Below are positions 1,502 through 39,088 of a DNA stretch of 42,298 bases, piece by piece. Each line of letters opens with the position of its first letter. Position 1 is the first letter of the stretch. The notes beneath the pieces were generated by a model. It saw only the letters and a list, made by a program, of their open reading frames with translations. It was not told the DNA's origin and made no database searches. This stretch comes from a virus: IMG/VR virus record IMGVR_UViG_3300036771_000018, positions 1-42,298 of that record, one strand, 5' to 3'. The position numbers were made by a program, and so were the translations under genes.

Positions 1502-1523
1502 CACCTACTCACGTGAGGAGGTG
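1502..1523. repeat. 22-bp palindrome, copy 1
   Basis: CACCTACTCAC followed by its reverse complement, with one change (T to G at position 17). Outer bases extend the inverted repeat to GGGGT...ACCCC (32 bp). It lies 12 bp after the major tail protein stop and 49 bp before the G chaperone start. Confidence 0.9.
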
Positions 1524-1535
1524 ACCCCGGGTGGG

Positions 1536-2129
1536 CTACTCGCCAGTGGGCGGAGTCTCAAGCTCCGCAGCAAAACCGGGGTCGGTGATCTGCCACTGTG
1601 CAAGCGCAGAACCACCGCCAAGCGCCTGAATCGTCATGCCCCACGTGACCGCCTCAGCGGACGAGAACTTAGGCGACTCGACCTCGGAAACCTGACCGGT
1701 CGGAATGAACATCCGCCAAATCCGGTCGTCACCGTCCTGCCACTCGAACAGATACGCAGACTTGGGACGGGAAACGCTTGGCTTCACATCCAGCGTCACA
1801 GTCTTGGTGGATGCGTCGACTACCGGCGAAGCGCCGTAGAAGTCGCCGAGAACGGCCGGGGACGACTCAAGAGCCGAAAGCTTGAGAGTCAGGGTCCGGC
1901 CGGTGACGATCACGCGGACCGTGCCACGCTGCCAGGACTTGACCTCTTCGGTGTCCTCGGAAAACTCGTGCTCCACGCCGTCATCAGTGAACGTGCCGAG
2001 TGGCACGAACGACTTGCCGACAGCCTCACCCGGAGCGGGGGCCGCCGTGCCAACGGGGGCCTTGTAAATGGTGCCGGTGACTGCCACCCGCACTAGGTCA
2101 GTGTTGAAACCCTCAGCGTCACGCGCCAT
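1536..2129 (-). CDS. Major tail protein (tail tube)
   Basis: 197-aa protein from ATG 2129 (MARDAEGFNTDLVRVAVTG), with AAAGGGG as ribosome site. An earlier in-frame ATG exists but would overlap the upstream gene. Composition (beta-rich, many Val/Thr), size and position between the tail terminator and the chaperones mark it as the major tail tube protein. Its middle has a TDDGVEHEFSEDTEEVKSWQ segment typical of phage tail tube proteins that recognise their own strands in the ring. Many copies should form the tail tube. Assignment is by context and fold-type features, not a strict motif. Confidence 0.85.
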   Translation of the reverse strand: MARDAEGFNTDLVRVAVTGTIYKAPVGTAAPAPGEAVGKSFVPLGTFTDDGVEHEFSEDTEEVKSWQRGTVRVIVTGRTLTLKLSALESSPAVLGDFYGASPVVDASTKTVTLDVKPSVSRPKSAYLFEWQDGDDRIWRMFIPTGQVSEVESPKFSSAEAVTWGMTIQALGGGSALAQWQITDPGFAAELETPPTGE

Positions 2130-2131
2130 GG

Positions 2132-2518
2132 TCAACCCCTTTCGGGTCGTACGGAAATTTGGTAGGTGCAGACCCATTCGGAAAGCTCCGTCAGGTCCTC
2201 GACCATGTATGTGAGTCCAGCGATGACGACGACTCGCGCGAACGGCTTGCCGGTAAGGCGCGTAGCCATTAGCTCGGAAGCAACCAACTGCGCGACGTCG
2301 TGACCGCGCTCACGGGAGTTCGACCACACTTCGATTTCGACCGTGGCGTTATCCAGTGCGGGCCAATTCATAAACCCGCCAATGCGGTGCACCATCACGA
2401 ACGGCCGTGAGCCGTCGTAGTCGTGGGGGACGAAAGTCCCGTACTCCACGTCATCCGGCAGCAAACTGCGCAGATGTCGGATAACCATGGATTCCACGTC
2501 CGGGAACACAGGAGGCAT
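2132..2518 (-). CDS. Tail terminator / tail completion protein
   Basis: 128 aa, starting MPPVFPDVESMVIRHLRSLL. The pattern (N-terminal helix, RPFVMVHRIGG strand, then VEIEVWSNSRERGHDVAQLVASEL) is that of the phage tail terminator family, which caps the tail tube and joins it to the head. It overlaps the upstream connector by one base at 2518 and is followed 2 bp later by the tail tube gene. Called from position and family pattern. Confidence 0.75.
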   Translation of the reverse strand: MPPVFPDVESMVIRHLRSLLPDDVEYGTFVPHDYDGSRPFVMVHRIGGFMNWPALDNATVEIEVWSNSRERGHDVAQLVASELMATRLTGKPFARVVVIAGLTYMVEDLTELSEWVCTYQISVRPERG

Positions 2519-2862
2519 CAGCCACCCCCCGTAAGCCGACCAACAGCGGCATCAAATGCACGCCCCAGGTACCGGCCGTTCCGGCGGGGGCCACGGCGCT
2601 TAGGGGCTCCGAACTCAATCAGGTTCGCGATCGGGGAACTGTTCCACACGCGAACCCAGACGTAGGATCCGTTCCCTCGCCCCTTCACACCCTCGCGAAT
2701 CGAGAACGACGAACTGAACCCCTCTTCATCCGGGGCACCAGCACGGGCTATCGAAAGCGCGGAAGAAGCTGCGGAGTTGAGCAGTCCCTTAACCTCACTG
2801 CTCTGTGCCAGGCGCTGAATTGCGGACTCATCCACCACTACGCGGACTCCAGTACGCGCCAT
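2518..2862 (-). CDS. Head-tail connector (HK97 gp10-like)
   Basis: 114-aa basic protein from ATG 2862 (MARTGVRVVVDESAIQ). The C-terminal ANLIEFGAPKRRGPRRNG...GRAFDAAVGRL resembles the HK97 gp10/neck protein family, where the LIEFGT-like motif and a final helix are conserved. The longer frame to 2904 would overlap the upstream gene by about 40 bp and lacks a better ribosome site. It sits in the standard order adaptor, stopper, gp10-like, terminator. Confidence 0.75.
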   Translation of the reverse strand: MARTGVRVVVDESAIQRLAQSSEVKGLLNSAASSALSIARAGAPDEEGFSSSFSIREGVKGRGNGSYVWVRVWNSSPIANLIEFGAPKRRGPRRNGRYLGRAFDAAVGRLTGGG

Positions 2863-2863
2863 G

Positions 2864-3211: not shown

Positions 3212-3212
3212 G

Positions 3213-3647: not shown

Positions 3648-3649
3648 GA

Positions 3650-5180: not shown

Positions 5181-5202
5181 CACCTACTCACGTGAGTAGG
5201 TG
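5181..5202. repeat. 22-bp palindrome, copy 2
   Basis: Perfect copy, 2 bp after the MuF-like gene stop and 24 bp before the scaffold start; flanking T and A extend the symmetry. Confidence 0.92.
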
Positions 5203-7400: not shown

Positions 7401-7422
7401 CACCTACTCACGTGAGTAGGTG
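7401..7422. repeat. 22-bp palindrome, copy 3
   Basis: Perfect copy between the large terminase stop (12 bp away) and the portal start (29 bp away). Confidence 0.92.
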
Positions 7423-11209: not shown

Positions 11210-11231
11210 CACCTACTCACGTGAGTAGGTG
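11210..11231. repeat. 22-bp palindrome, copy 4
   Basis: Perfect copy placed between the 3' end of tRNA-Pro (2 bp away) and the start of the fibre-like gene (14 bp away). Confidence 0.92.
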
Positions 11232-11233
11232 AG

Positions 11234-11305
11234 TCCGGATGGCAGGGATCGAACCTGCGGCCCCTCGGTCCCAAACCGAGTGCGCTACCACTACGCCACA
11301 TCCGA
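11234..11305 (-). tRNA. tRNA-Pro (anticodon TGG)
   Basis: 72-nt cloverleaf on the minus strand: acceptor TCGGATG/CATCCGG (first pair U-G), anticodon loop TTTGGGA with stem CTCGG/CCGAG, and T-loop TTCGATC. Reads CCA. The 3' CCA is not encoded. Nearest the late genes in a cluster of four. Confidence 0.9.
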
Positions 11306-11349
11306 TCAAGGGCACGGATGGCCGACGCGAATCGGCACCCATGCCCACG

Positions 11350-11423
11350 TACCCACTCCCGGACTCGAACCGGGACACTTTGGTTCCTAAGACCAACGGC
11401 TTTACCAATTTGCCTAAGCGGGC
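11350..11423 (-). tRNA. tRNA with anticodon TAG (nominal Leu), unusual class I shape
   Basis: 74-nt cloverleaf: acceptor GCCCGCT/AGTGGGT (two G-U pairs), D-stem GGC/GCC, anticodon stem TTGGT/ACCAA, loop CTTAGGA, T-loop TTCGAGT. The anticodon reads CUA (Leu), but the variable loop is only 5 nt (AGTGT), whereas bacterial tRNA-Leu normally has a long variable arm. Charging identity is therefore uncertain. Confidence 0.8.
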
Positions 11424-11428
11424 TAGCT

Positions 11429-11499
11429 TGCGTCCGGCCGGATTCGAACCGACGTTAGCCCCGGCAAGGGGCTGTTCTGGGCCGCTGAACTACAGACGC
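11429..11499 (-). tRNA. tRNA, anticodon uncertain (TGC Ala or shifted), shortened anticodon arm
   Basis: 71-nt cloverleaf with a strong acceptor (GCGTCTG/CGGACGC), D-stem GTTC/GAAC and T-stem GTCGG/CCGGC with TTCGAAT loop. The anticodon arm is odd: full pairing GCCCC/GGGGC leaves a 5-nt loop TTGCC, while a 7-nt loop CTTGCCG gives anticodon TGC (Ala) but uses up position 26 and leaves C at position 37. About two bases short of a standard tRNA. Confidence 0.7.
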
Positions 11500-11598
11500 T
11501 TCAGGCCAAACACGGGAGCTACCCGCTAAGCCTAGGGATCCCGAGGGAGCCCCTAAGTCCGCACTACTCGCCCCACCCGGGGGTTTCGTGCGGGCTAG

Positions 11599-11671
11599 CT
11601 GGTCCGGCAGGAATCGAACCTGCAACCCCCGGTTTTGGAGACCGGTGCTCTACCAATTGAGCTACGTACCA
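11599..11671 (-). tRNA. tRNA-Trp (anticodon CCA)
   Basis: 73-nt cloverleaf: acceptor TGGTACG/CGGACCA with one A-G mismatch, D-stem GCTC/GAGC, anticodon stem CCGGT/ACCGG with loop CTCCAAA, T-stem GCAGG/CCTGC, discriminator G. Standard in every arm apart from the acceptor mismatch. No encoded CCA. Confidence 0.92.
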
Positions 11672-11786
11672 ACGTCCGTGTGCTTGCTCAGAACGACGGC
11701 CGGAGAGAGTTAGCCATCGGAGTGCACACGGAGTGAGAGCGGGGTCTCAGACCGCCGACAACCAAAGGGGTGCGCGGGAATCCCGC

Positions 11787-11817
11787 CCTCTCTATGTATC
11801 TAGTGAGTGAGCGGCCT
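11787..11817 (-). promoter_or_regulatory. Promoter-like element, copy f (tRNA unit)
   Basis: Minus strand AGGCCGCTCACTC-A-CTAGA followed by TACATAGAGAGG. It is the most diverged of six copies of this element, 116 bp before tRNA-Trp. Confidence 0.55.
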
Positions 11818-11876
11818 GTTTTGGGGGTTTTCGAGCCCTGGCGGGCCACTTTTTCAGCGGGAGGGGTGTGCGCTGA

Positions 11877-11896
11877 TGACGAATGACGGACGAGAC
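11877..11896 (-). repeat. Shared 20-bp element, copy A
   Basis: TGACGAATGACGG followed by ACGAGAC, identical to 30747-30766. It has a weak inverted partner at 11972-11985 (CCGTCATCAG). Confidence 0.8.
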
Positions 11897-12115
11897 GCTA
11901 AATCTGGCAACCCTTGTAACTTTCCAATGCGTTTCTGAAAAATCCATAAAACCATCACTCCGTCATCAGTGCAGCTCAGACGGCCCCGTTCGCTGTATGC
12001 CCGCCCGCGCTCCGTCATCCCCGTCATGACGCGACATGTACATGCCAATACGGAGAGTAAAAAAAGAGACACGCTCCGTAGCGACGCCCTGTGCGCCCGT
12101 CTGCGGGCATGAAGA

Positions 12116-12149
12116 AGCCCCGCCCGGCCGGAAGGGACCGAACGGGGCT
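12116..12149 (-). terminator. Integrase terminator
   Basis: AGCCCCG/CGGGGCT hairpin with a 20-base loop, 30 bp after the integrase stop; ends GGGGCTTCTTC on the minus strand. Very similar to the hairpin at 30911-30943. Confidence 0.75.
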
Positions 12150-12178
12150 ATGAAGCGCTCTACGGGGCTCCCAGGGGT

Positions 12179-13972
12179 CTACGCGGCCCCGCTAAGGTCC
12201 ACACTCGACCCCGTGTAGTCCGGTGCCTGTGCCCATGTGATCGTCATGCGCTCAGCGACTTGCCGCGCGAACGCCAAGGGGTCGTTCCGGCGCCCGCCCC
12301 GGATGGTCCCCTTGCGGACCGTGATCCGCTCAACGAACAGCACGACGAATGCCCGCCGTTCTTCCAACGTGGCTTGATGCCACCACGAGCCGGGGCCGAT
12401 GGGGTCGACGTCGGGACTGTCCGGCAACCACTGTCGGAGCGGCAACACCGGCACGTCAGATTCTCCCAGCGCTGCTAGCCGGTGCTCGGTGGCTTCTAGC
12501 CGGTCGTTTGCCGCTGTCTCGGCCTTGAGGAATCGCCGCCGACCGATTGCCGATCGGAAACCCCCCTCGTCGCGCTCGTCGTACAGCTCCTCTAGCGCCC
12601 TTACGGCGTCGGCACGCTCCGCCACCAGGGCCCGCCGCTCCTGCGCCGTCTCAGCGGGCTCTGAGAGCGCCCCGAAGCGCCTTGCAGCCTCCCGCATGAC
12701 GTCGCCCGCGTCGGCGTCCCGTTCAGCTGCCTGGATCAAGGCAAAGATGCGGCGGGCAACGTACTCGTCGGCGTACTCCTGCGAGATGGTGACACCGCCG
12801 GTGTGTTGTCCGGGGTATTCACCGCCACGGGGCCGGGTGCACCGGTAGGCAGGGTTCGACGTCTTGCTAGTGACGTTCAGGCTCCCGAAGGGTCGGCCAC
12901 ATTCGCATTGCGTTACCGCGTCGCTTTCGGGTGTGCGGAGCCCTGAAAGCAGCGACGTGCCACGGGCGAGACCCCGCCCACGGTCGCGCGTTTCCAACCA
13001 TGCCTGGAGTTCGTACCACTCGGCGGGGGGAATGATCGGCTCACAGAACTTGATGGGTTCGGCCGTCTCGGGGTCGCGCCGGATTCGGTACGACTTCACT
13101 CGTGTGCTTGGTGTGCCGTCTTCTTTCACGCCGAACACCGGGTCGGCTTCAAAACCTGCGATCCGAGGATCCATCAGGATGCGCTTAAGGGTGGACACTC
13201 CCCAACGGGAGTCCTTTCGGTCCTTCCCGTCCCGTTGTCCCCGGGTTGGTATTGCGTCGTCGTTCATCTGTATGCAGATACCGGACAGCGATCCCGGGTG
13301 GGTCTTGCCGCCCACGGTGGGGGTGTCGAAGTGGCGTCGGATGGTTGCCCATACCTGACGGATGTTCGCTGCTTCGGTAGGTTCGTGGTACGGGATTTGG
13401 ACGACGATGGGTTTTCCCGCGTCCGTGAATCGCGTTTCCGCTTTGAGCATGAAGCCGTAGGGGGCCGTTCCGCCGACGTACCCGCCAAGCTGTCGCGCTT
13501 TCTTCTTGGCGCTGGTTACGGCCTCACTCTTGTTCTTGCTTTCCTGGTATGCCGCGTCAAGGCGCATGATCAGGTGAATTAGGTCCATGACGTTGTTCTT
13601 ACGGAATTCACCCTCAGTGACACTGACGATGACAACGCCAAGATGAAGCAATTCGGTTACGAGCGGGATGATTTCCAGCGGCTCACGACGCGAAAGCCTG
13701 GATATGTAATAGACGACGATGACGTTGATACGCCCCGCTTTGCAATCGGCTATCAGCCGGTCGAAGTCCTTACGCGTGACCTCCGCTTTGAACGCAGAAA
13801 GCCCCAAGTCCTCGTACAGCTCGATGTGTTCCGGCTCGAATGTGCGCGCCCGCTCGATGCCCGCTTCTCGCTGCGTCACGGTGCTGACTTCCGAGCCGTT
13901 CTCGCGGCCCATCGACTGACGGCCGTACACGCCTACGTGCGTCGCCATGCCGGTAACCATCCCTAGTGTCAT
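12179..13972 (-). CDS. int: Large serine integrase (phiC31 type)
   Basis: 597 aa from ATG 13972. The start MTLGMVTGMATHVGVYGRQS aligns from its first residue with the known phiC31 integrase start, which is why I choose it over the much longer open frame. The catalytic Ser is in YGRQS. Resolvase domain motifs include YYISRLSRREPLEI and FRKNNVMDLIHLIMRLD. These are followed by the recombinase domain (GGYVGGTAPYGF, MDPRIAGF), a zinc ribbon with CECG and later Cys residues (about 390-440), a coiled coil (RALVAERADAVRALEELYDE) and the C-terminal WAQAPDY. It recombines attP with a host attB. A terminator lies directly behind it. Confidence 0.97.
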   Translation of the reverse strand: MTLGMVTGMATHVGVYGRQSMGRENGSEVSTVTQREAGIERARTFEPEHIELYEDLGLSAFKAEVTRKDFDRLIADCKAGRINVIVVYYISRLSRREPLEIIPLVTELLHLGVVIVSVTEGEFRKNNVMDLIHLIMRLDAAYQESKNKSEAVTSAKKKARQLGGYVGGTAPYGFMLKAETRFTDAGKPIVVQIPYHEPTEAANIRQVWATIRRHFDTPTVGGKTHPGSLSGICIQMNDDAIPTRGQRDGKDRKDSRWGVSTLKRILMDPRIAGFEADPVFGVKEDGTPSTRVKSYRIRRDPETAEPIKFCEPIIPPAEWYELQAWLETRDRGRGLARGTSLLSGLRTPESDAVTQCECGRPFGSLNVTSKTSNPAYRCTRPRGGEYPGQHTGGVTISQEYADEYVARRIFALIQAAERDADAGDVMREAARRFGALSEPAETAQERRALVAERADAVRALEELYDERDEGGFRSAIGRRRFLKAETAANDRLEATEHRLAALGESDVPVLPLRQWLPDSPDVDPIGPGSWWHQATLEERRAFVVLFVERITVRKGTIRGGRRNDPLAFARQVAERMTITWAQAPDYTGSSVDLSGAA

Positions 13973-13979
13973 GGCCAGA

Positions 13980-14028
13980 ACTTTAACTGACCTATCTACG
14001 TGCACTGAAAAGCTAACACAGTTAGGGC
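13980..14028. other. Candidate attP upstream of integrase
   Basis: In phiC31-type phages attP lies beside int. The 89-bp gap before this integrase carries an imperfect inverted repeat, TAACTG (13984-13989) and CAGTTA (14019-14024), plus CTAAC/GTTAG at 14013-14025. The spacing (41 bp overall) fits the size of a serine-integrase attP, but I cannot identify the central dinucleotide. Confidence 0.3.
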
Positions 14029-14061
14029 ACTTAGGCCCTGACCTGCGGAAACGTGCCCCGG

Positions 14062-14325
14062 TCATTCCTCCGTGACCACGATGGACAGCCCCTCGGTGCT
14101 GTACTCCCAGCGTCCCGACTCGGCTAGCTCCTGGCGGACGTCGGCGAGCAGCGCACGGGTGAGCGGTGCCAGCATGCGGGGCAACATCTGCGCTGCCACT
14201 CCCCCGACGTGGCGCCGGACAGCTTCGGCGATGATGCGATCCATTACCCCGGATGCTGCTTCTATTGAGACCGCCGACGCGCCCCCGGCGCCTACGCCTT
14301 CCGCATCCCATTGCACCTGAATCAT
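14062..14325 (-). CDS. Small protein of unknown function, paralogue of the gene at 16044
   Basis: 87 aa, MIQVQWDAEGVGAGG. Mostly one long helical segment (DRIIAEAVRRHVGGVAAQML...APLTRALLADVRQELAESG) with a short beta C-terminus. It shares an order of conserved positions with the protein at 16044-16301 (EG-x-GAG, EAA-x-G, H-x2-GV-x-A, APL-x3-L, GR-x-E), so the two are diverged duplicates. It sits directly upstream of int in transcription, with an 89-bp gap. I assign no function. Confidence 0.75.
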   Translation of the reverse strand: MIQVQWDAEGVGAGGASAVSIEAASGVMDRIIAEAVRRHVGGVAAQMLPRMLAPLTRALLADVRQELAESGRWEYSTEGLSIVVTEE

Positions 14326-14355
14326 GAATGCAGCGTAGAGCCAGGCAGTCTGTGC

Positions 14356-14691
14356 CTACTCGGCCCCTTCGGCCCTCCTGCGCAGTGCTTCCAGCTCTGC
14401 CCGCTTTCGCTCCCGCGACCGGCGTGCGTACTCCGCCTGTTTGGCCCGTGCTGCGGCTGCCTCTTCTGGCGTACGTGATGCCCTGGCCGCTTTCGCTTCG
14501 GCGTTCCGGGCGGCACGCCACTTGTCCGGGTCGGCCGCTCTGACCTTTGCGTTGTATGCGTTCTTCCGCTTCAGGACGCACGTTCGGCAACGCGTGTTCA
14601 GCCTTGCCGTTGCCCCCTTTCCGATGGGCTCGAAGTGATCAGCATCTAGGGGCTTCTCTTCCTTGCACCCGGTACATACGCGCATGTCCAT
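14356..14691 (-). CDS. Small zinc-finger, basic coiled-coil protein
   Basis: 111 aa from ATG 14691 (MDMRVCTGCKEEKPLDADHF). The N-terminus has CTGC and, 25 residues on, CRTC: a four-Cys zinc site like that at the start of recombination endonuclease VII and many phage HNH proteins. The rest is a long, highly charged Ala/Arg/Glu helix (about residues 45-111) with no nuclease motif. It could bind nucleic acid. A second ATG (MRV) is 6 bp on. A terminator lies between it and the upstream gene, so it probably has its own promoter. Confidence 0.75.
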   Translation of the reverse strand: MDMRVCTGCKEEKPLDADHFEPIGKGATARLNTRCRTCVLKRKNAYNAKVRAADPDKWRAARNAEAKAARASRTPEEAAAARAKQAEYARRSRERKRAELEALRRRAEGAE

Positions 14692-14725
14692 GCTGTGAGT
14701 GTAGGTCTTTCCCGGACAGCGGAAA

Positions 14726-14753
14726 GCCCCACCGGTAGCTACTCCGGCGGGGC
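14726..14753 (-). terminator. Terminator
   Basis: GCCCC-a-CCGG and CCGG-c-GGGGC arms around an 8-base loop; minus strand continues TTTCC. It ends the unit of small genes at 16.0-14.9 kb. Confidence 0.8.
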
Positions 14754-14893
14754 CTTGTTCCGTACCGCGAAAGCGTCCAATCGCGGGCGCGTCTCCGATG
14801 GGTGTCGGCTGGGCGGTCCGAGAGCTTCCGGCCCTGGTCCGCATGTCCTCACCACTGGGGAACGGGGCTGATCTTAGCGCCGTCGGCGACGGG

Positions 14894-15151
14894 TTATGGG
14901 CGAACCTGCCAACTGTCAACGGGCGGCCGGTGTCCAACTGCGTTCACGTACTCGCCCAGCTCTTCGAGCTGCTCCCACTCCCCGCTCTCAGGCTCGCATT
15001 GTGCCTGGGCTAGTTGAATGGCGCCTACCAGTCCCTGGCCGATCTCCCCATGCGCCGTGAACCGGCGGAGCGGGGCACCGAAACGGCGTTCCTGGTGCGC
15101 CCTGGCGATCTCCCGCGCCTGGCCGTCCGACAGTGGTTCGTGGTTGCTCAC
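14894..15151 (-). CDS. Small protein of unknown function
   Basis: 85 aa from GTG 15151 (MSNHEPLSDGQAREIARAHQ), overlapping the upstream gene's TGA as GTGA, so translation is coupled. Helical, with paired acidic/polar faces (IQLAQAQCEPESGEWEQLEELGEYV). No motif recognised. Confidence 0.75.
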   Translation of the reverse strand: MSNHEPLSDGQAREIARAHQERRFGAPLRRFTAHGEIGQGLVGAIQLAQAQCEPESGEWEQLEELGEYVNAVGHRPPVDSWQVRP

Positions 15152-15321
15152 GCTGCATCACCGCCGCTGTTGTTCTCGTCGGACAGCCGGGCCGTGATCT
15201 TTTCTGCCGTGGCCTGTGCGATCTTCTGTACGAACTCCGGTAATTCCGGGTTCTTCGAAGCGTTCAGCATGGCCCCCGCCTTTGCTGCGTCGCTTAGCTG
15301 GTCGTCGTCGGATGCCGTCAT
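15148..15321 (-). CDS. 57-aa acidic helical protein
   Basis: ATG 15321 (MTASDDDQLSDAAKAGAMLN) with GGGGGTGTCCC upstream; TGA at 15148 overlaps the next gene's GTG. The sequence continues ASKNPELPEFVQKIAQATAEK and ends in an acidic, Asn/Gly-rich tail. It is too short for most automatic calls, but the tight coupling to the next gene supports it. Function unknown. Confidence 0.75.
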   Translation of the reverse strand: MTASDDDQLSDAAKAGAMLNASKNPELPEFVQKIAQATAEKITARLSDENNSGGDAA

Positions 15322-15392
15322 GGGACACCCCCCTTTCTGGACTGGAGATCGTCACGCTAGCGAGCGGCGCCCCTGCCTGCATTCGGGCTTGA

Positions 15393-15434
15393 CAAAGCCC
15401 CGGCCACTCGTTCAGGGGAACGGGTCACCGGGGC
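15393..15434 (-). terminator. Terminator
   Basis: AAGCCCCGG/CCGGGGCTT arms with an inner paired GTTC/GAAC region; minus strand continues TTTGTC. Confidence 0.75.
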
Positions 15435-15454
15435 TTGCCGATAGGGTCGGGGCG

Positions 15455-15480
15455 GACCCCCGGACATTGTGAGTGTCCGG
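15455..15480 (-). terminator. Hairpin identical to the one at 18551, without a T-run
   Basis: CCCCCGGACA/TGTCCGGGG arms with loop TTGTGAG, 7 bp after the stop of the upstream gene. Loop and stem match 18551-18576 exactly. Here no T-tract follows, so termination would rely on the next hairpin at 15393-15434. Confidence 0.6.
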
Positions 15481-15486
15481 GGTTCC

Positions 15487-15813
15487 TTATCGCTGGTAGG
15501 GGATCTCCCACGGTTCCGGCGGGGTTGTGTACTGAGCCCATGGGGATTCGGTCTGCGGGATCTTCCGCCACCGCCGCCGTGGTCGCGGGCTAGTGCGCGG
15601 GCTAACGCGCGGGGGCTCTTCACCGTCCGCCGGATTCAGCCCCCAGGCGTCGTAGCAGTGCTCTAGCCACCGGTCAGCCTCACCCCTGGAACGCCAGGCG
15701 AGCACGCACCCATCAAGACCACACGACGCGCTGAGTGTGTAGTCATGGATCACAAAGGACGTGCCGGACGTAGTGGGACGCACCTCGTACCGGTCCCTTA
15801 TTACACCGCTCAC
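15487..15813 (-). CDS. Small protein of unknown function, paralogue of the gene at 15810
   Basis: 108 aa from GTG 15813 (VSGVIRDRYEVRP), overlapping the upstream TGA as GTGA with GGGGGGA as ribosome site. The first 60 residues share a pattern with the preceding gene product: RY-x-I/V start, Gly-rich turn, then R-x-G/R-x-A-x-R/D-WL-x3-C and a W. The C-terminal half is a Pro/Arg/Trp-rich tail unique to this copy (SPRTSPRPRRRWRK). Function unknown. Confidence 0.75.
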   Translation of the reverse strand: MSGVIRDRYEVRPTTSGTSFVIHDYTLSASCGLDGCVLAWRSRGEADRWLEHCYDAWGLNPADGEEPPRVSPRTSPRPRRRWRKIPQTESPWAQYTTPPEPWEIPYQR

Positions 15814-16016
15814 GCATCCCCCCACGTCCCGCATGCTGCCAACCAGTCGCGTGCAGCTCGGCCGGTGCGGAACCGAAGCTCTGCAAGCTCCCCGGTCTCG
15901 TCCGGCAGCGCACAGAACTCGCCGCCCATGTGGTCATCGGCGATCTTGTACCCGCCCGACAGTGGCGCTGCAACGATCCGGTACCGCGCCCTGGTCGGCA
16001 ATTTTGTTGTTGTCAT
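15810..16016 (-). CDS. Small protein of unknown function, paralogue of the gene at 15487
   Basis: 68 aa, MTTTKLPTRARYRIVAAPLSGG. A single small domain: beta strands with RYRIVAAPLSGGYKIADDH, then a helix TGRAARDWLAACGTW. The same arrangement is seen in the downstream neighbour, suggesting tandem duplication and divergence. The C-terminal helix pattern A-x2-WL-x2-C is the best shared mark. Confidence 0.75.
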   Translation of the reverse strand: MTTTKLPTRARYRIVAAPLSGGYKIADDHMGGEFCALPDETGELAELRFRTGRAARDWLAACGTWGDA

Positions 16017-16043
16017 GTGGGCAAGGTACCGACCGGTTCCGGC

Positions 16044-16301
16044 CTACGGGTAGAGCGTGGCGAGAATGCCGCCCCGGGACGCCGACCACTCGCGTCCCCG
16101 TTCTACCTCCCAACGGCCGTCCGTCACGAGTGAGGCTCGTAGCGGGGCCACCACGGACGCGAGGATGTGCGCCTGGACGCCTGCCCCGTGCTTGGCGTAC
16201 GCGTCCCGTACAGCGGCAGCCAGCGCCCCGGCCGCTGCATCCACATCCTTCACGTCAGCACTTCCGGCGCCGTGCCCTTCAAGTACCCATGCGATTCTCA
16301 T
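16044..16301 (-). CDS. Small protein of unknown function, paralogue of the gene at 14062
   Basis: 85 aa (MRIAWVLEGHGAGSADVKDV). ATG overlaps the upstream stop as ATGA, so it is coupled to the secreted-protein gene. Ala-rich helix in the middle, GRWEVERGREWS near the C-terminus. Conserved positions match the 14062-14325 product along the whole length. Function unknown. Confidence 0.78.
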   Translation of the reverse strand: MRIAWVLEGHGAGSADVKDVDAAAGALAAAVRDAYAKHGAGVQAHILASVVAPLRASLVTDGRWEVERGREWSASRGGILATLYP

Positions 16302-17083
16302 CCGTTGACACTAGCCGTGTCGGCGTCGGCGGCCTGGTCGACGGTGTTGTGCATCGTGTCGTCGGCGACGTCGGCAACGTCTTCCGGCGCGGTGACTTCA
16401 GACGTGCGGGTGACGCTCGTGTCCGTCTCCGGATCGGTTGCTGTCACGGTCACGCGCGACGGGTCGGCGATGCTCGCCGTCGTCGGGTCCTCGATCACTA
16501 GCCGGACGTCGACCCCGGTCCCCCCGGCCTGGTCGTCGCGGCTTACGGACAGCACCCTCAGCATGCTGCGCATGCCGTCAGGCTCGGCGGTCACGCGGGC
16601 CCACACAACCAGCTTCCCCGTCCGGTTCATGTACGCCTGCACTTGCGTGCCCTTGACTGAGTGCTTACGGACGTCGGCGACGATGGGCAGTGCCCAGTCA
16701 GGGAGGTGCTTGACGTCGGGCAGCACGCGTTCAAGTCCCCTACGCAAGGGCGACTTTGGGTGCTTGCTCGGCCGGTGCTTCGGCTTGCGTTCGGCCCGGT
16801 GCTTGGGTGCCCGCTTGGCAGGCTTTCCGTGGGCCGTGGGGGCCGGAGTCGGCGTAACCGCTGTACGGGCCGGAGAGGGGCGCTCAGGCGCCTTCCCGGG
16901 GGGCGTCGGCCGGATCGGTGCGGGCTCGGTCGGCATGGCGTCATCTTCCGTGGCTACCGGCTCCGGGCCGGACGGCCGGTAGTGCTTTCCTGCGGGTGCC
17001 GCTTGTCCGGTCGCGCTCATCAGCACACCGAACACACCTATGGAAGCTGTCATGGCCATTACCAGGGGTGCATGTCTTGGCAT
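16298..17083 (-). CDS. Predicted secreted protein with basic Pro-rich linker
   Basis: 261 aa (MPRHAPLVMAMTASIGVFGVLM) with AGGAAAG as ribosome site. Residues 1-30 look like a Sec signal peptide: short basic start, hydrophobic core, SATGQAAPA as likely cleavage region, no lipobox. Residues 30-110 are Pro/Lys/Arg rich (KPAKRAPKHRAERKPKHRP), suited to binding an anionic surface such as a cell wall. Residues 110-200 form a compact domain (VLPDVKHLPDWALPIVADVRK...LVVWARVTAE). The C-terminus is acidic and Thr/Asp/Val rich. Its place beside int suggests a cargo gene expressed in lysogens. No enzyme motif seen. Confidence 0.8.
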   Translation of the reverse strand: MPRHAPLVMAMTASIGVFGVLMSATGQAAPAGKHYRPSGPEPVATEDDAMPTEPAPIRPTPPGKAPERPSPARTAVTPTPAPTAHGKPAKRAPKHRAERKPKHRPSKHPKSPLRRGLERVLPDVKHLPDWALPIVADVRKHSVKGTQVQAYMNRTGKLVVWARVTAEPDGMRSMLRVLSVSRDDQAGGTGVDVRLVIEDPTTASIADPSRVTVTATDPETDTSVTRTSEVTAPEDVADVADDTMHNTVDQAADADTASVNG

Positions 17084-17130
17084 CTTTCCTCGCTAAGCGG
17101 AGTGTTGGGTTCCGGCGGATACTTTCACAT

Positions 17131-17499
17131 TCAAGCAATGATCGTTTCAAGTGCCGGAATCGCCATCGGGTTCAGCGGTATGTACTCCTCGGCCGTCCAA
17201 ATGCCAACAGGCCGGAAGACCCCCGTTTCTACGGACTGATGCCACTCCCCCATAGCGAGCATGCGGCCGGACAGAACGCCCCGTACGGCGACGCGGTAGC
17301 CCTGATAGGCGGTCGCTGCCAGCAGTCGCCCGACGATCGACCCTTGCCCCCGCAGGACGTCAGCAACATCCCGCCAGGACCGGGCCAGGTCGACGGCGCC
17401 TAGTCCATCGAGTTGCGGGCAGGACCCCCACACTTTCCGGCCGTCGACTACGGCGGGAACGGTGACATTCAGTTGAATCTCGTACGAGTTGGCTGGCAT
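17131..17499 (-). CDS. Protein of unknown function
   Basis: 122 aa from ATG 17499 (MPANSYEIQLNVTVPAVVDG). Beta-rich first half, helix in the middle (LARSWRDVADVLRGQ), then YRVAVRGVLSGRMLAMGEWHQSVE and WTAEEYIPLNP. No family recognised. It stands alone, with about 230 bp of non-coding DNA upstream that holds a terminator and an inverted repeat. Confidence 0.65.
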   Translation of the reverse strand: MPANSYEIQLNVTVPAVVDGRKVWGSCPQLDGLGAVDLARSWRDVADVLRGQGSIVGRLLAATAYQGYRVAVRGVLSGRMLAMGEWHQSVETGVFRPVGIWTAEEYIPLNPMAIPALETIIA

Positions 17500-17565
17500 G
17501 CCCAAATCATCAGCTACGACAGGGTTACGAAGCGTCCGACTCCGGGACGGCTTCACCTAGGGGCC

Positions 17566-17587
17566 GTCTCCTCCGAAAGGCGGAGAC
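17566..17587. other. Hairpin upstream of the 17131 gene
   Basis: GTCTCC-t-CCG/CGG-c... pairing: GTCTCC and GGAGAC arms with CCGAAAGG inside. Orientation does not favour termination; could be a leader structure or operator. Confidence 0.35.
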
Positions 17588-17651
17588 GCGACTACTCCGG
17601 GGGGCGCAAGATCAATGAACGCAACGCACGCAAGTAGGATTGTCGCTGTGC

Positions 17652-17667
17652 GTTACCGACCGGTAAC
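17652..17667. repeat. Inverted repeat GTTACCG-AC-CGGTAAC
   Basis: Seven-base arms separated by two bases, 7 bp from the terminator at 17675. Possible operator; GTTACC also appears in the structured region at 22989-23057. Confidence 0.45.
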
Positions 17668-17674
17668 ACAAAAA

Positions 17675-17696
17675 GGCCCCCACCGAAGCGGGGGCC
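17675..17696 (-). terminator. Early-region terminator
   Basis: GGCCCCC/GGGGGCC stem, 8-base loop, minus strand continues TTTTTG. It lies 13 bp below palindrome copy 5, giving the order stop codon, palindrome, terminator. Confidence 0.9.
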
Positions 17697-17708
17697 ATTC
17701 TATGGGGG

Positions 17709-17730
17709 CACCTACTCACGTGAGTAGGTG
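17709..17730. repeat. 22-bp palindrome, copy 5
   Basis: Perfect copy, 1 bp after the stop of the 17732 gene and just before a terminator; no gene start follows for about 210 bp, so here it cannot simply be a leader element. Confidence 0.92.
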
Positions 17731-18910: not shown

Positions 18911-18932
18911 CACCTACTCACGTGAGTAGGTC
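18911..18932. repeat. 22-bp palindrome, copy 6
   Basis: One change at the last base, which is also the first base of the 31-aa ORF's TGA stop on the minus strand (TGA at 18933-18931); the stop codon overlaps the palindrome. Confidence 0.9.
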
Positions 18933-21008: not shown

Positions 21009-21030
21009 CACCTACTCACGTGAGTAAGTG
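21009..21030. repeat. 22-bp palindrome, copy 7
   Basis: One change (G to A at position 19). Outer arms GACCGGG/CCCGGTC extend the inverted repeat to 21001-21038, the longest in the set. Confidence 0.9.
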
Positions 21031-21053: not shown

Positions 21054-21236
21054 TAGTTGTTGTGGTCGCCCGACAGGTACGCGGCTAGCTCTAGTACGTC
21101 GGCCGGATCGTAGGATCTCGGCCACTCGTGTTCGCTGATCAGCGTCCGTGCCGTGCGGTAGTAGTCCGCGCGTTCCGCAACGTACTCCGGTCCAGTCTGT
21201 TCACTGAACGGCTCACTCAGCGCCACAGCCGCGAAC
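21054..21236 (-). CDS. Small protein of unknown function
   Basis: 60 aa from GTG 21236 (VALSEPFSEQTGPEYVAERA), overlapping the 3' end of the upstream gene by 20 bp. Acidic and helical: YYRTARTLISEHEW, then VLELAAYLSGDHNN. It fills the gap up to palindrome copy 7 and has one long frame, but a weak ribosome site. Confidence 0.6.
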
Positions 21237-21477: not shown

Positions 21478-21511
21478 GCTCTCTCTCCTCGTAGTGTTCG
21501 GCGTTGCCGAG

Positions 21512-21581
21512 TGCCCCGGACGGGAATCGAACCCGTGCACGTCGGTTGATCAGTCCTGCTCTGCCACTGAGCTACCGGGGC
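21512..21581 (-). tRNA. tRNA-like gene with an unpaired anticodon arm
   Basis: 70 nt on the minus strand: perfect acceptor GCCCCGG/CCGGGGC, D-arm GCTC/GAGC, T-arm ACGGG/CCCGT with TTCGATT loop. The anticodon region GGACTGATCAACCGACG cannot form a 5-bp stem; reading CTGATCA as loop gives GAT (Ile) with only two pairs. Discriminator A, no CCA encoded. A degenerate tRNA or a tRNA mimic among early genes. Confidence 0.6.
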
Positions 21582-23125: not shown

Positions 23126-23147
23126 CACCTACTCACGTGAGTAGGTG
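23126..23147. repeat. 22-bp palindrome, copy 8
   Basis: Perfect copy, 101 bp after the DNA polymerase stop, the largest distance from a coding end in the set. Confidence 0.92.
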
Positions 23148-25124: not shown

Positions 25125-25146
25125 CACCTACTCACGCGAGTAGGTG
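25125..25146. repeat. 22-bp palindrome, copy 9
   Basis: One change at the centre (ACGT to ACGC). It sits 24 bp after the primase stop and 28 bp before the polymerase start; outer GGGCC/GACCC extend it imperfectly. Confidence 0.88.
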
Positions 25147-28409: not shown

Positions 28410-28431
28410 CACCTACTCACGTGAGTAGGTG
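28410..28431. repeat. 22-bp palindrome, copy 10
   Basis: Perfect copy, 12 bp before the 28218 gene start and 12 bp after a terminator hairpin. Confidence 0.92.
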
Positions 28432-29742: not shown

Positions 29743-29764
29743 CACCTACTCGCGTGCGTAGGTG
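29743..29764. repeat. 22-bp palindrome, copy 11 (most diverged)
   Basis: Two changes (positions 10 and 15) but intact outer arms CACCTAC/GTAGGTG. It lies between the promoter-like element and the RDF start, the clearest operator-like placement in the set. Confidence 0.85.
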
Positions 29765-29833: not shown

Positions 29834-30671
29834 ACCGGGCGCGTCGCTGCGTGCCGGTCTCAAGCTGTCCCGAACTCTTCGCAATGGCACGGCCGATGAC
29901 GGTCTTAGAGACCTCCCGATCCCAGTCAAAGACCTTCCGCAGCGTCAGGAAGAAGTCGAAGACGTCACGGTCGATGCGGACCGGCTTGAATGCCCACTGG
30001 TCCGGGGTGATGTGCAGAACCGCCGCGCCGTCGAACTCCGGCATGGGCTCGCTCGTACCGTCCGGCCGGATGATGCGGTCAGCGTGCGCGTAGGCGCTCA
30101 TCTGCAACGCAACGTCGGGGTACGTGTCCTTACTGGTCTTCCAGTCGACCATCAGGAGGTGGGGCGTCCCGGACCGGTCCGGGGTCGGCTTTCCGTCGTC
30201 GTCGATCCACACACGGAGCACCGCATCGAAGGATCCGGCGTACTCGTGAGCGTCCGACCATGCGACGTCTTCAGCGCGCACAAGCTCGGGATTGACCGTG
30301 GCAAGGAAGTCTGCGAAGTGGTCGCGGTACGGCACTAGATCGGGGTGCACGCTACCCACGTACTCGCCCCTGATCATGCGCTCGAACAGGTCGTGTGCGT
30401 CGCTGCCGACATCGGCGCGAACCTTGGTGTACCGGCGACTTGCACCCTTGAGGTAGTCGACGGCCCCCTGTCGGTCCCGCTGCGCCATCTGCTCTACGAA
30501 CGGCAGGGAGTCGACGGCGAGTTCGGCCGTCATCTTCGCCGCCCAAAACATGAGGAACGGCTTAGGCAGCATTCCGACGACGCTGGTTACTCCGGGGACC
30601 TTGATTTCCGGTCGTTCCGGGTGGACGTAGAAGCGAGAACCACCGCGCTTGATGGTGCGGACGTTACCCAT
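29832..30671 (-). CDS. Cas4/RecB-like PD-(D/E)XK exonuclease
   Basis: 279 aa (MGNVRTIKRGGSRFYVHPER). Nuclease motifs in order: GSDAHDLFERM (motif with conserved His), EYAGSFDAVL (Asp), LLMVDWKTSK (D-x-K) and ALQMSAYAHAD (QxxxY). These are the RecB/Cas4 family motifs. No four-Cys iron-sulfur cluster set is visible. Phage members are thought to act in recombination or replication. No CRISPR or Cas genes are nearby. First gene of the RDF-upstream unit, 31 bp after promoter-like copy d. Confidence 0.88.
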   Translation of the reverse strand: MGNVRTIKRGGSRFYVHPERPEIKVPGVTSVVGMLPKPFLMFWAAKMTAELAVDSLPFVEQMAQRDRQGAVDYLKGASRRYTKVRADVGSDAHDLFERMIRGEYVGSVHPDLVPYRDHFADFLATVNPELVRAEDVAWSDAHEYAGSFDAVLRVWIDDDGKPTPDRSGTPHLLMVDWKTSKDTYPDVALQMSAYAHADRIIRPDGTSEPMPEFDGAAVLHITPDQWAFKPVRIDRDVFDFFLTLRKVFDWDREVSKTVIGRAIAKSSGQLETGTQRRAR

Positions 30672-32104: not shown

Positions 32105-33454
32105 CTAGCTCAGGGCACCAAGCATCTTCTGGAGTTCTGCGATCTGCGCCTTGATGGACTTCTTCAGCGCGTCACGCTCCTTGTCTTCCATCTCGTCGGC
32201 GACCGCGTCGATGTCGATGTCTTCCGCAGCGGATACAGCCTTGACGGCCTTACCGGCCTTGCTCACAGCGGCCTTTACGCGCTCCGTCGGCGTCTTCTCC
32301 TTGGGGGCAAGCCCCGATTCCTGCGCTTCGGCCTCGGCCTCTCCCTCGGTCAGTTCACCGGCGGCGACGCGTGCGGCAAGAGCGGCCTTAGCCTCCCGCG
32401 CTGCCTTGGCGAGTTCCGCCCGAGTGTTGCGGGTGGTGATGTTGTGGAACGTGAAAACCGCTTCGGAAAGCGACTTGTCCGGGTGGGCATCCTGCGCGTA
32501 CTTGTACTGCGCCTTGATGTCGTCGGCCGACGTGTCCAGCGCGCGAATGAACAGAACTTTCACGTCACCCATGGCGTTCTGCGCGCTCTTCTTGATGCTG
32601 CCGATCTCGGCACGGATCGCGTCGTCCGCCTCATTCTCGCCTTCTTCGGCAAGCTTCTCCGTGATCGCGTCGTAGACCGTGCTCGATGCCTTCTTCGCTT
32701 GGTCCGTGGTCGCATCGAAGTCGATGTAACCCGCTTCCGTCTTGATGTGCGTGCGAATCTCGAAGATCTTCGCTGCGATCTCGTGTCCACCCTTGAACTT
32801 GCTGATCGCAAGTTCCCGAACCTTTGCCGACGCCTCCTTGACAAGCTCAGGAACACCGGGGATTTCGGTGAAGTCAGCAGGCTGCTTTGTAGCGACCTCG
32901 TTACTCTTAGTAGCCTTGGGCTCTTCCTTGGACTCCGCCCGCTTAGCGGCCGCAAGCTGCGTGCGGTAGCCCTTACGGATCGACGTGGTGTCCTTACCGG
33001 TCGCGCCACGCAGCTTGGAAATCAGCGCCTCAGTCTCAACTTCCAGCTCTTCCGCGCCCTCCGCGTTCTCAGCCTCCGCAAGCGAGCGCACGCGCTCGAT
33101 GTTCGCTTCAATCTCTTCAACCAGCGCCTCAGTGCTCTGTGCAGGCGCTTCGGTGGTGGCGTCATTCTTGGTGGGCATATCCCCGGCCTCTCCGCTGGTG
33201 TTGTCGTCGTGGTACTGCGCGGGCAGCATAGCAGACGCTGCGTCAACCACTGCGATCATGCGCTTCCAGCACGTGCCGCAGGGTGCAACATCCCCTTCAT
33301 AGTCGGTCGCACTGAAGTACGAGCTAACCGCCCGACCGCACAGCGTGTCGTCATTGCGGGTCGAAAGATGCGGGGTCTTGCCCTTGCCGACCAGCGCGAA
33401 CGAGTGCGACGCCTTCATGTCGAACCACTCCTGAAGTTCGTTGCGCTCGTTCAT
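32105..33454 (-). CDS. 449-aa early protein of unknown function, zinc-like N-terminus and coiled coil
   Basis: ATG 33454 (MNERNELQEWFDMKASHSFA) with GGAGAGGGG upstream. Residues 20-60 have HLSTRNDDTLCG and APCGTCWKRM, a probable zinc module. Residues 70-190 are acidic and low complexity, and the rest is charged helix/coiled coil (AKKASSTVYDAITEKLAEEG, LAARVAAGELTEGEAEAEAQ). An internal Met (MPTKNDATTEAPAQ, about residue 94) has GGAGAGG upstream and could give a shorter isoform. It is monocistronic between two terminators with a palindrome in its leader, as for an autoregulated gene. No helix-turn-helix is evident. Confidence 0.8.
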   Translation of the reverse strand: MNERNELQEWFDMKASHSFALVGKGKTPHLSTRNDDTLCGRAVSSYFSATDYEGDVAPCGTCWKRMIAVVDAASAMLPAQYHDDNTSGEAGDMPTKNDATTEAPAQSTEALVEEIEANIERVRSLAEAENAEGAEELEVETEALISKLRGATGKDTTSIRKGYRTQLAAAKRAESKEEPKATKSNEVATKQPADFTEIPGVPELVKEASAKVRELAISKFKGGHEIAAKIFEIRTHIKTEAGYIDFDATTDQAKKASSTVYDAITEKLAEEGENEADDAIRAEIGSIKKSAQNAMGDVKVLFIRALDTSADDIKAQYKYAQDAHPDKSLSEAVFTFHNITTRNTRAELAKAAREAKAALAARVAAGELTEGEAEAEAQESGLAPKEKTPTERVKAAVSKAGKAVKAVSAAEDIDIDAVADEMEDKERDALKKSIKAQIAELQKMLGALS

Positions 33455-33521: not shown

Positions 33522-33543
33522 CACCTACTCACGTGAGTAGGTG
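33522..33543. repeat. 22-bp palindrome, copy 12
   Basis: Perfect copy in the leader/promoter region of the 449-aa protein gene, 67 bp before its ATG and 14 bp after a terminator. Confidence 0.92.
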
Positions 33544-33599: not shown

Positions 33600-34199
33600 T
33601 CATGCGGTGAGGCTGTCAGCCTCGGTGTCTAGGTCGAAGAGAGACCCGCCGTTGATGAGTACGCGGTCTACGGGGTAGCCGTCTAGCGCCGTCTCGCTCT
33701 CGTGGTTGCGGTTGGTCATCTCGTCGGGTGTGACTGTCTCGGCGGTGCACCCGGGGCGGAGTACGCGAACAAGGGCAAAGCCCCGGTTCTTTAGCGCCTC
33801 GGCTTCATTCGGGTACCGAACATCGGTCACGACAACGGGGAGATTCCACGTGTCGGCAACGTCGACCTTATCCAGCGCGATGTTTACCCAGTAGTCCGAA
33901 TCGAATTCGCGGACCGATTGGCCGATCCGCTGAAGTGTCCGGCGAACTTCCGGGAAGTCCTCTTTCGCGGAATCCCAACCGTGCTGCCGAATGACGTCGC
34001 TAAGACGCCACGGAATGAATCCGTAAGAGCCTGCCCCCGGTGCGGCGGATATGACCGGGTCGACGGACAGCGCCATTCCCTTAAGCGGGTCGGCGAAAGC
34101 TACGCGGGTGTACTGAAAGCGCGACACGAGACGCGCGGCAACAGTGTCCTTACCGCTGCGCGCACGTCCCATGATCGCGATGTGGGGAAGCTTCGGCAC
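33600..34199 (-). CDS. Deoxynucleoside monophosphate kinase
   Basis: 199 aa from GTG 34199 (MPKLPHIAIMGRARSGKDTV) with GAGGAGAG upstream. The P-loop GRARSGKDTVA and VAFADPLKGMA are the hallmarks of phage dNMP kinases (T4 gp1-like). DVIRQHGWDSAKEDFPEVRRTLQRIGQSVRE and VVVTDVRYPNEAEAL follow in the family order. It phosphorylates dNMPs for replication, complementing ThyX and dCMP deaminase. Promoter-like copy e is 24 bp upstream. Confidence 0.93.
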   Translation of the reverse strand: MPKLPHIAIMGRARSGKDTVAARLVSRFQYTRVAFADPLKGMALSVDPVISAAPGAGSYGFIPWRLSDVIRQHGWDSAKEDFPEVRRTLQRIGQSVREFDSDYWVNIALDKVDVADTWNLPVVVTDVRYPNEAEALKNRGFALVRVLRPGCTAETVTPDEMTNRNHESETALDGYPVDRVLINGGSLFDLDTEADSLTA

Positions 34200-35541: not shown

Positions 35542-35543
35542 GT

Positions 35544-35565
35544 CACCTACTCACGTGAGTAGGTG
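35544..35565. repeat. 22-bp palindrome, copy 13
   Basis: Perfect copy 19 bp after the holin-like gene stop, followed by a terminator hairpin: same order as copy 5. Confidence 0.92.
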
Positions 35566-37371: not shown

Positions 37372-38519
37372 TAGAAGACCTCCGAGGGGGCAACGGTCAG
37401 CGTCACGTGTTCCGATGGGCCCGACACTTCGACTGCAACCGTCGTGACCACGAACTCAGCGTCGAACGAGACAAGCCCCAGACTCGCGGCGGCGGTCACC
37501 TTGTCACCGGGTCGAATCTCCCCGATCCCGGGGAACACGCCAGGGTGAAGCAAGATCGACGGCATGACGACAGGGGCCGAGCCCTCTTGCCGCATCTTCC
37601 GCGCCTTGCCGTTCAGCGTGGAAACCTTGGTCACATCCGAGAAAGACTCGACAGACTCAAGACGCGGCAACCGACGTTCGAGGGTGTTGTTAAAGATCTG
37701 CTCTCCCCCGTCGCTGGGCTCCAACGCGTTGGACTCAGACGAGAGTTGCCGCGAACCGTCACCGGCTCCGGTCGTCCATGGCAGTGTCACCATTGACGTA
37801 GCGTCGCTGGACACCTCAGTCACGTTGCAGTTGTCGCCGTGCCGAAGGTGGATCCCGGTTGCCTGGCCGTTCTGTGGCAGGAACTCAATGCGCATGATCG
37901 GGTTGCCGGTCTCCGCCGAGTAGACCGGGGTATGCCGGAACAAGAACCCCTTGTCGACAGCGGCAAGTTGCTCGACCAGTTCGGCAACCTGCTTACGCTC
38001 GTGTCGCCAGTAGGTGCGTTCGTGGTTGTACCCCTTGTTGGGGTAGTTGGCGTAGTCGCCTAGCTTCGGCAGCTCGTACAGTGGCGCCGCTTCATAGACA
38101 ACCTGACCAGGGTCCGGCGTGAAGCCCGAACCCATGTTGCGAATCAGGATGTCCGTCACCTGGTTGTAGCTCTTGAGTAGAACCGGGTCGCCGGTGTTGG
38201 ACCACTTCTCACGAACGAACCTGCGGCGGAAGTACGACCACATTCCCTCGCAGCGAAGCTCCAGCGACCCCGCCTCCAGGTTGGCATTCCATGCCCACAG
38301 GATGCCGCCCCACATCAGGACCCCATCACGCTCTACCCAAACTCCATGCATGCCCGGCTGGATCGCCTCAAGCCCCTCAGCCTGGCGTGAAGGGTCCAAT
38401 GGAATGGTGATGTTCGCGGACCCCGGGGAGTTCACAACTTCCTCATACGAGAGTGCCGTTGCTGGCATCTCTCCGCGAACGGCGCCCGACTTAAGCTCAG
38501 TCCAAAGGACCCTGTACAC
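37371..38519 (-). CDS. Minor tail protein (Gp37-like, tail tip)
   Basis: 382 aa from GTG 38519 (MYRVLWTELKSGAVRGEMPA). SANITIPLDP, GMHGVWVERDGVLMWGGILW and LELRCEGMWSYFRRR are the pattern of the siphovirus Gp37-like tail proteins related to baseplate hub proteins. A C-terminal domain with GDKVTAAASLGLVSFDAEFVVTT is typical of the same family. Likely part of the tail tip that contacts the host. Confidence 0.82.
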   Translation of the reverse strand: MYRVLWTELKSGAVRGEMPATALSYEEVVNSPGSANITIPLDPSRQAEGLEAIQPGMHGVWVERDGVLMWGGILWAWNANLEAGSLELRCEGMWSYFRRRFVREKWSNTGDPVLLKSYNQVTDILIRNMGSGFTPDPGQVVYEAAPLYELPKLGDYANYPNKGYNHERTYWRHERKQVAELVEQLAAVDKGFLFRHTPVYSAETGNPIMRIEFLPQNGQATGIHLRHGDNCNVTEVSSDATSMVTLPWTTGAGDGSRQLSSESNALEPSDGGEQIFNNTLERRLPRLESVESFSDVTKVSTLNGKARKMRQEGSAPVVMPSILLHPGVFPGIGEIRPGDKVTAAASLGLVSFDAEFVVTTVAVEVSGPSEHVTLTVAPSEVF

Positions 38520-38527
38520 ACTTCCCC

Positions 38528-39049
38528 CTAGCTGGACGTCTGCCCTAGTAGCTGCACAACCGTCCCCGGGCCAAGCCCAGTTGCACCGGCCTTGACCGTG
38601 ATTTCTGCTAGCCGCAGAACCTCGGGGTACGGGTACTCAGATGCCGGGGGCGCGGTAGGCACCTCCCCGGACGTAACGGCACCCGTGGCGAGCCCGAACG
38701 TCCACTTAGGGGCAACCGCCTCGGTGTCATTGATCGCGAGATACGCAACATGTTTCTGACTTCCGCTACTGACAGCGGGAATCGGCAGGTACAGGTACGA
38801 CGCTCCCGCGTCATAGTCGACTAGGTACAGGTCCGCCTTCCCGGCAGACCAGACGAACGCCTGTGACCCCTGCTTAGCACTCACACGCAGGTTGGCCGAG
38901 CTGGACCCCACGTAGAAGTTGCCAGCGGTGTACGTCAGCCCATCCCGGTTGCCCCGGAGGGCGGCAACCAGTCGACGCATATTGCGCGCCGAGTAGCTGC
39001 CACCCTGCCCGAACATGGGGGCCGTTGTTCCGTCAAGGACCGTGCCCAT
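38528..39049 (-). CDS. Minor tail protein
   Basis: 173 aa (MGTVLDGTTAPMFGQGGSYS). The conserved start (VLDGTTAPMFGQGGSYSARNMRR) is found in actinophage minor tail/fibre-base proteins. Then beta-rich (YLYLPIPAVSSGSQKHVAYLAIND) and a Gly/Thr-rich C-terminus. Its promoter-side gap holds palindrome copy 14. Confidence 0.78.
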   Translation of the reverse strand: MGTVLDGTTAPMFGQGGSYSARNMRRLVAALRGNRDGLTYTAGNFYVGSSSANLRVSAKQGSQAFVWSAGKADLYLVDYDAGASYLYLPIPAVSSGSQKHVAYLAINDTEAVAPKWTFGLATGAVTSGEVPTAPPASEYPYPEVLRLAEITVKAGATGLGPGTVVQLLGQTSS

Positions 39050-39066
39050 AATCGAACCTCTCTCGT

Positions 39067-39088
39067 CACCTACTCACGTGAGTAGGTG
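39067..39088. repeat. 22-bp palindrome, copy 14
   Basis: Perfect copy filling most of the gap between the distal tail gene stop (2 bp away) and the next minor tail gene start (17 bp away). Confidence 0.92.

Follow-up and report, generated by a model that had tools for sequence, protein, structure and literature searches.

The DNA analyzed here (hereafter, the window) is a viral stretch of 42,298 nucleotides, IMG/VR record IMGVR_UViG_3300036771_000018, which contains 14 copies of the palindrome CACCTACTCACGTGAGTAGGTG distributed over its whole length, together with a gene for a protein of the family PF25746 (Phage_Repressor_c, "Streptomyces phage repressor protein c"). The 127-bp exact direct repeat at its ends (1-127 and 42172-42298) and the gene order of its relatives indicate that the window is a complete phage genome opened at an arbitrary position; the cut point falls inside the tape measure region, and the gene order, read on the minus strand, is that of Rowa, Shady, and phiC31. 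Nine copies of the palindrome are perfect, four have one change, and one has two, with sequences and coordinates exactly as listed in an earlier annotation made from the letters alone (first-pass annotation). The palindrome had no match in 100 dinucleotide shuffles, and an unsupervised search of the window for 20-bp near-palindromes returned the same 14 places and no second palindrome family of three or more copies. All 14 copies are situated in gaps between genes or between a gene and a tRNA, copy 6 touching the TGA stop codon upstream, and for ten of them the nearest stop codon or tRNA end upstream is no more than 25 bp away; the copy-free stretch around the integrase, also pointed out at first pass, is real and is the largest such gap in the genome.

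The palindrome, which the first-pass annotation had not recognised, is a known sequence. The genome of phiC31 contains 16 copies of the core TACTCACGTGAGTA, of which one differs at a single position and five match the full 20-mer of the window, ACCTACTCACGTGAGTAGGT; these copies are the "conserved inverted repeats" (CIRs) reported in the 1990s as the operators of repressor c. Phages phiBT1, Shawty, Lilbooboo, Vash, and Samora contain 14-16 copies each, and six more near-complete uncultured phages contain 15-17 copies each in the form found in the window. The PF25746 match of the window protein is strong (172 bits against a cut-off of 27, E 2.2e-50), and its gene occupies the position of phiC31 c, between the dNMP (deoxynucleoside monophosphate) kinase gene and the exonuclease and other early genes (Table 1). 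Thus, what had been proposed as a parallel to phiC31 proves to be a near-identity, the window having both the phiC31 core and a PF25746 repressor c. Co-occurrence of the palindrome with a given repressor in related phages, which the first-pass annotation had suggested looking for, is found without exception among the near-complete window-type phages that have the exact palindrome: all seven (window included) encode PF25746 repressors, which are 32-80% identical to that of the window. We therefore consider it very probable that the phage's own immunity repressor, of the phiC31 type, uses the 14 palindromes as its operators and reads them as a dimer. The basis of this reading is the identity with the phiC31 site, the repressor family, the conserved positions of the sites, the co-variation of a repressor helix with the operator, and the one-sided nature of substitutions in the sites. 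A DNA-binding and probably dimeric reader of a genome-wide operator set, as envisaged at first pass, remains the best-supported reading.

Table 1 Candidate operators and associated features of the window. Distances are to the upstream stop codon or tRNA end and were derived from gene calls, tRNA calls, and inspected flanks; slot denotes a gap between the genes named.
Feature	Position	Strand	Distance (nt)	Description
Candidate operator 1	1502..1523		12	CACCTACTCACGTGAGGAGGTG, 1 change; gap between tail-module genes
Candidate operator 2	5181..5202		2	perfect; protease-like / scaffold-like gap within late operon; next ATG 24 nt on
Candidate operator 3	7401..7422		12	perfect; terminase large subunit (TerL) / portal gap; slot common to phiC31, phiBT1, Shawty, Vash, TG1
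Candidate operator 4	11210..11231		1 (tRNA-Pro)	perfect; upstream of genome-end HNH genes
Candidate operator 5	17709..17730		1	perfect; followed by separate intrinsic-terminator-like hairpin at 17696-17675
Candidate operator 6	18911..18932		overlap	1 change; overlap with upstream stop codon
Candidate operator 7	21009..21030		22	1 change; upstream of thyX
Candidate operator 8	23126..23147		101	perfect; slot DNA polymerase / sigma factor
Candidate operator 9	25125..25146		24	1 change, at centre; slot primase / DNA polymerase
Candidate operator 10	28410..28431		59	perfect; slot gp4 / gp5; after terminator hairpin 28480-28444
Candidate operator 11	29743..29764		67	2 changes; slot exonuclease / recombination-directionality-factor
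Candidate operator 12	33522..33543		56	perfect; slot dNMP kinase / repressor; downstream of dNMP kinase terminator-like hairpin, upstream of repressor start; candidate autoregulatory operator
Candidate operator 13	35544..35565		19	perfect; slot tail gene / lysin
Candidate operator 14	39067..39088		2	perfect; between minor-tail genes, downstream of tape measure gene
Operator-free island	11232..17708			holds serine integrase and tRNA cluster
Serine integrase gene	12179-14590	-		803-aa reading frame
Exonuclease gene	29835-30665
Repressor gene	32105..33454	-		449 aa; PF25746; predicted recognition helix, residues ~345-359
dNMP kinase gene	33609-34184

Most of the relatives with full genomes contain 8-25 copies of a 20-bp palindrome of their own, with one dominant palindrome family per genome, in gaps that are syntenic even where the sequence differs. 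TG1, Heather, Abbey, Rowa, Shady, and Sycamore share with the window the PF25746 repressor, the common slots, and, where evaluable, an integrase gap free of sites. The palindromes of TG1 and Abbey differ partly from that of the window with the inner core unchanged, whereas those of Rowa (ACCTCCGAAAATCCGGAGGT) and Shady (ACCTAGTAACGTTACTAGGT) are wholly different and go together with different recognition helices. Slots that recur across entirely different palindromes are dNMP kinase/repressor, gp4/gp5, primase/polymerase, and polymerase/sigma factor, as well as those before thyX, before the lysin gene, around the head genes, and before the end HNH gene. The integrase is located inside the largest operator-free gap in all 16 evaluable genomes, which comprise at least five operator types. 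In host genomes, too, the repressor family and multiple copies occur together: a prophage of S. uncialis contains 15 copies of a variant palindrome with the same inner core, and two Streptomyces genomes with several spread-out core copies have a PF25746 gene between them.

An AlphaFold2 model of the repressor, built on a 44-sequence alignment, is mostly helical (pLDDT, the model's confidence score, 81.5), and its helices 329-336 and 345-364 may represent a helix-turn-helix, judging from their sequence pattern. The predicted structure had no useful Foldseek match in the PDB (best E 0.81), and nothing credible emerged when PDB sequences were searched with a profile. When the repressor was scanned in stretches of 15 residues, residues 345-359 best predicted the distance between operator cores (Spearman -0.61), and the best stretch outside the helix was 286-300, with S286 and N293. 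The nearly identical stretch 342-356 gave a partial Mantel r of -0.53 (permutation p 2e-4) when the rest of the repressor was controlled for, with hand-chosen representatives and a type of test that is liberal under shared ancestry. Repressors associated with the inner core CTCACGTGAG mostly have a common R-x-E-x-A-[RK] in the helix, including those of the window, phiC31, TG1, Abbey, and the locus L122, which are otherwise far apart. Phages of the Heather type have Q instead of A in the helix and the core CTCTCAAGAG, and in Rowa, Shady, Sycamore, and others both helix and core differ. Four held-out prophages are largely consistent with this rule: G278 (phiC31 helix; 17 sites), G013 (RAETAK; 15 sites), and G061 (RTELER; 8 sites) have the C31 core CTCACGTGAG, and G074 (RTEAMR; 8 sites) has the altered core ATCACGTGAT. 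These data suggest that the predicted recognition helix is the part of the repressor that would read the inner core of the operator.

Perfect inverted repeats just past stop codons and a tRNA, transcribed within operons, might alternatively work as RNA hairpins, that is, as terminators, processing sites, or protein-binding RNA elements, and conservation of the stem pairing without the sequence had been named at first pass as the sign of such an element. In the window's clade, however, all 35 substitutions in site pairs are one-sided, with none compensatory, and 16 of them break the pairing even when G-U is allowed, which argues against an RNA hairpin. Furthermore, the palindromes are not followed by a T-run and were not called as terminators, separate terminator-like hairpins adjoin the copies at 17709, 28410, and 33522, the centre that would form the loop is nearly invariant, and the site sequence tracks the repressor helix; we regard the RNA alternative as extremely improbable. 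Identity with intrinsic terminators was rejected on the T-run and the one-sided substitutions of this clade. Across 194 sites, the inner positions hardly vary, and the mean information content is 1.94 bits per column in the site versus 0.09 in its flanks. The conservation of the whole primary sequence asserted in the first-pass annotation holds strictly for the inner 14-18 bp, but not for the outermost pairs, which differ between relatives. In the phiC31 clade there are outer pairs in which both bases change, as a symmetric protein site also allows.

Several observations weigh against assigning the palindromes to the PF25746 repressor, in addition to the limits of the Mantel test given above. 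The repressors of the window and phiC31 are only ~21% identical, so that the transfer of function rests on family, gene position, helix pattern, and the identical site. A tblastn search with the window repressor found one distant phage record only, a low yield ascribable to the divergence of the family, for which profiles and synteny are needed. Euratis and its relatives (RTEQMR) keep the CTCACGTGAG core despite a different helix, and the helix-operator rule is thus not strict. Some PF25746 loci gave no detectable multi-copy palindrome in a de novo search; several of them are short fragments, and Euratis-like phages keep few copies. Finally, some Streptomyces genomes that lack PF25746 contain the core in sparse, isolated copies.

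The last observation bears on the possibility of another reader for the sites, either a DNA-binding protein of the host or a phage protein distinct from the PF25746 repressor. A host reader would explain why one site sequence is found with repressors so dissimilar and also alone in Streptomyces chromosomes: of 121 Streptomyces genomes, 7 contain the core CTACTCACGTGAGTAG (PF25746 prophages among them) and none contains either of two rearranged control palindromes, the 18-mer is present in 13 of 394 genomes, 9 of its 11 carriers that were tested are without a PF25746 gene, and several copies adjoin tRNA-Pro or an integrase-like gene. Nevertheless, the palindrome switches completely within one phage family, at unchanged slots and in step with the repressor helix, the Streptomyces genomes with several spread-out copies have the PF25746 gene between them, and most genomes are without any copy. 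A reader other than the PF25746 repressor is accordingly judged very unlikely, and the phage's own repressor is retained as the probable reader.

The lone core copies in Streptomyces chromosomes without PF25746 have some features of their own. Four of them (L042:953-974, L043:3666-3687, L204:1501-1518, and L205:1501-1518) lie within longer perfect palindromes (half-length 16-20) beside the 3' end of tRNA-Pro, the L043 copy adjoining an integrase-like reading frame; the outer arms of these palindromes vary between genomes and stay symmetric. In another such chromosome (L198:1501-1546), two different palindromes with the ACTCACGTGAGT core are arranged in tandem between convergent reading frames. 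One exact 22-mer is found in a metagenome-assembled genome of a Thermoplasmata archaeon (L044:2523-2544) that is not obviously phage, by chance or contamination possibly. As for the window itself, the resolvase domain of the integrase begins only at residue ~222, and the frame may start downstream or have an N-terminal extension; an Rfam tRNA match at 21512-21581 (minus strand, 49 bits), absent from the ARAGORN calls, overlaps the end of a predicted gene (21217-21540).

In the mode of action that we envisage for the PF25746 repressor, each palindrome, being two-fold symmetric, would accommodate a repressor dimer, with the recognition helix of each subunit reading the inner core CTCACGTGAG in one half-site, and in the lysogen all copies would be occupied. 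The copy at 33522, at the repressor gene promoter, would block initiation and thereby mediate autoregulation, and the copy at 23126, in the long polymerase/sigma factor gap that likely contains an early promoter, would likewise block initiation. Most of the other copies are 1-60 bp past a stop codon inside operons, often too near the next start for a promoter of their own, and would probably act as roadblocks to transcription leaking through. The integrase stretch, being free of sites, could allow the integrase to be expressed. Binding, dimerization, repression, and roadblocking in the window phage are all inferred here.

The primary function is most likely to control initiation, at the repressor gene and in the polymerase/sigma factor gap. 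A roadblock role for the sites directly after stop codons, 24-45 nt before the next start, is somewhat favored; the same role has been suggested for sites of R4 and cluster A phages (PMC10276819). It is also conceivable, though we incline against it, that all sites are ordinary operators, each acting on an adjacent promoter and none on elongation. The copies at the repressor gene and in the polymerase/sigma factor gap (~400 bp) do leave room for a promoter, the few copies kept by Euratis and its relatives (five, or 1-2 per fragment) include the one immediately before the repressor gene and copies in the polymerase/sigma factor gap, and promoters that overlap the site or use the phage sigma factor are conceivable. 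However, the 24-45 nt between several copies and the next start are too short for a downstream promoter and leader, the flanks of the sites, in which a shared promoter motif at a fixed distance was looked for, contain none, and few sigma-70-like promoters were detected, none of them near the copies in the stretch scanned. The subgroup with RTE[QA]MR and few operators (Euratis, as L098-L099, and L172-L182) looks like a network that has shrunk naturally to its core sites.

Going further, we speculate that phages with phiC31-type symmetric operators have evolved, independently of L5 and R4, a genome-wide network for roadblock silencing, in which a single helix of a repressor fold that has no close PDB counterpart sets the specificity and the ~15 operators of a genome change together while their slots stay fixed, and that a resident phage repressor acts through the lone copies in Streptomyces chromosomes to control unrelated integrative elements; this composite scenario is put forward only tentatively. 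An uncultured phage is hereby tied directly to the best-studied Streptomyces phage, and the old, descriptive repeats of phiC31 become a family-wide, testable repressor-operator code. Common slots with group-specific palindromes provide a natural data set on how a phage shifts the specificity of ~15 operators together, a multi-operator version of how immunity groups evolve, and may lead to immunity-group predictions for the Streptomyces phages and prophages that serve as genetic tools.

The genome-wide arrangement of the sites is worth comparing with that of the mycobacteriophage L5 stoperators, the second parallel drawn at first pass, which stands for the layout, compatible as it is with a bound repressor arresting RNA polymerase during elongation, but not for the repressor type or the form of the site. 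L5 and other cluster A phages, as well as R4-like phages, for which a repressor-stoperator system has been described with an architecture proposed to silence elongation (PMC10276819), also have many repressor sites, which lie in short gaps between genes throughout the genome. The site of cluster A phages is asymmetric and monomer-bound (PMC9283540), and R4 has an L5 gp71-like repressor and, in the unsupervised search for 20-bp near-palindromes, no palindrome family of this kind. In contrast, the window has a PF25746 repressor instead of a gp71-like one and a palindrome of 20-22 bp instead of a short asymmetric site in one orientation relative to transcription; membership in the L5/R4 stoperator group was rejected on both repressor type and site symmetry.

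With phiC31, the window shares the common core, intergenic sites throughout the genome, and a repressor of the same family at the matching gene position, and the slots common to both are TerL/portal, gp4/gp5, primase/polymerase, polymerase/sigma factor, before thyX, dNMP kinase/repressor, and before the lysin gene. Unlike phiC31, the window has sites that are more uniform at the outer bases and a repressor gene without an internal copy (phiC31 has one at 19771). The phiC31 repressor, of 683 residues, occurs in several in-frame isoforms, and the 449-residue window protein is without most of its long N-terminal part. Judged from its sites and repressor, the window phage is a further member of the known phiC31 repressor-operator system.

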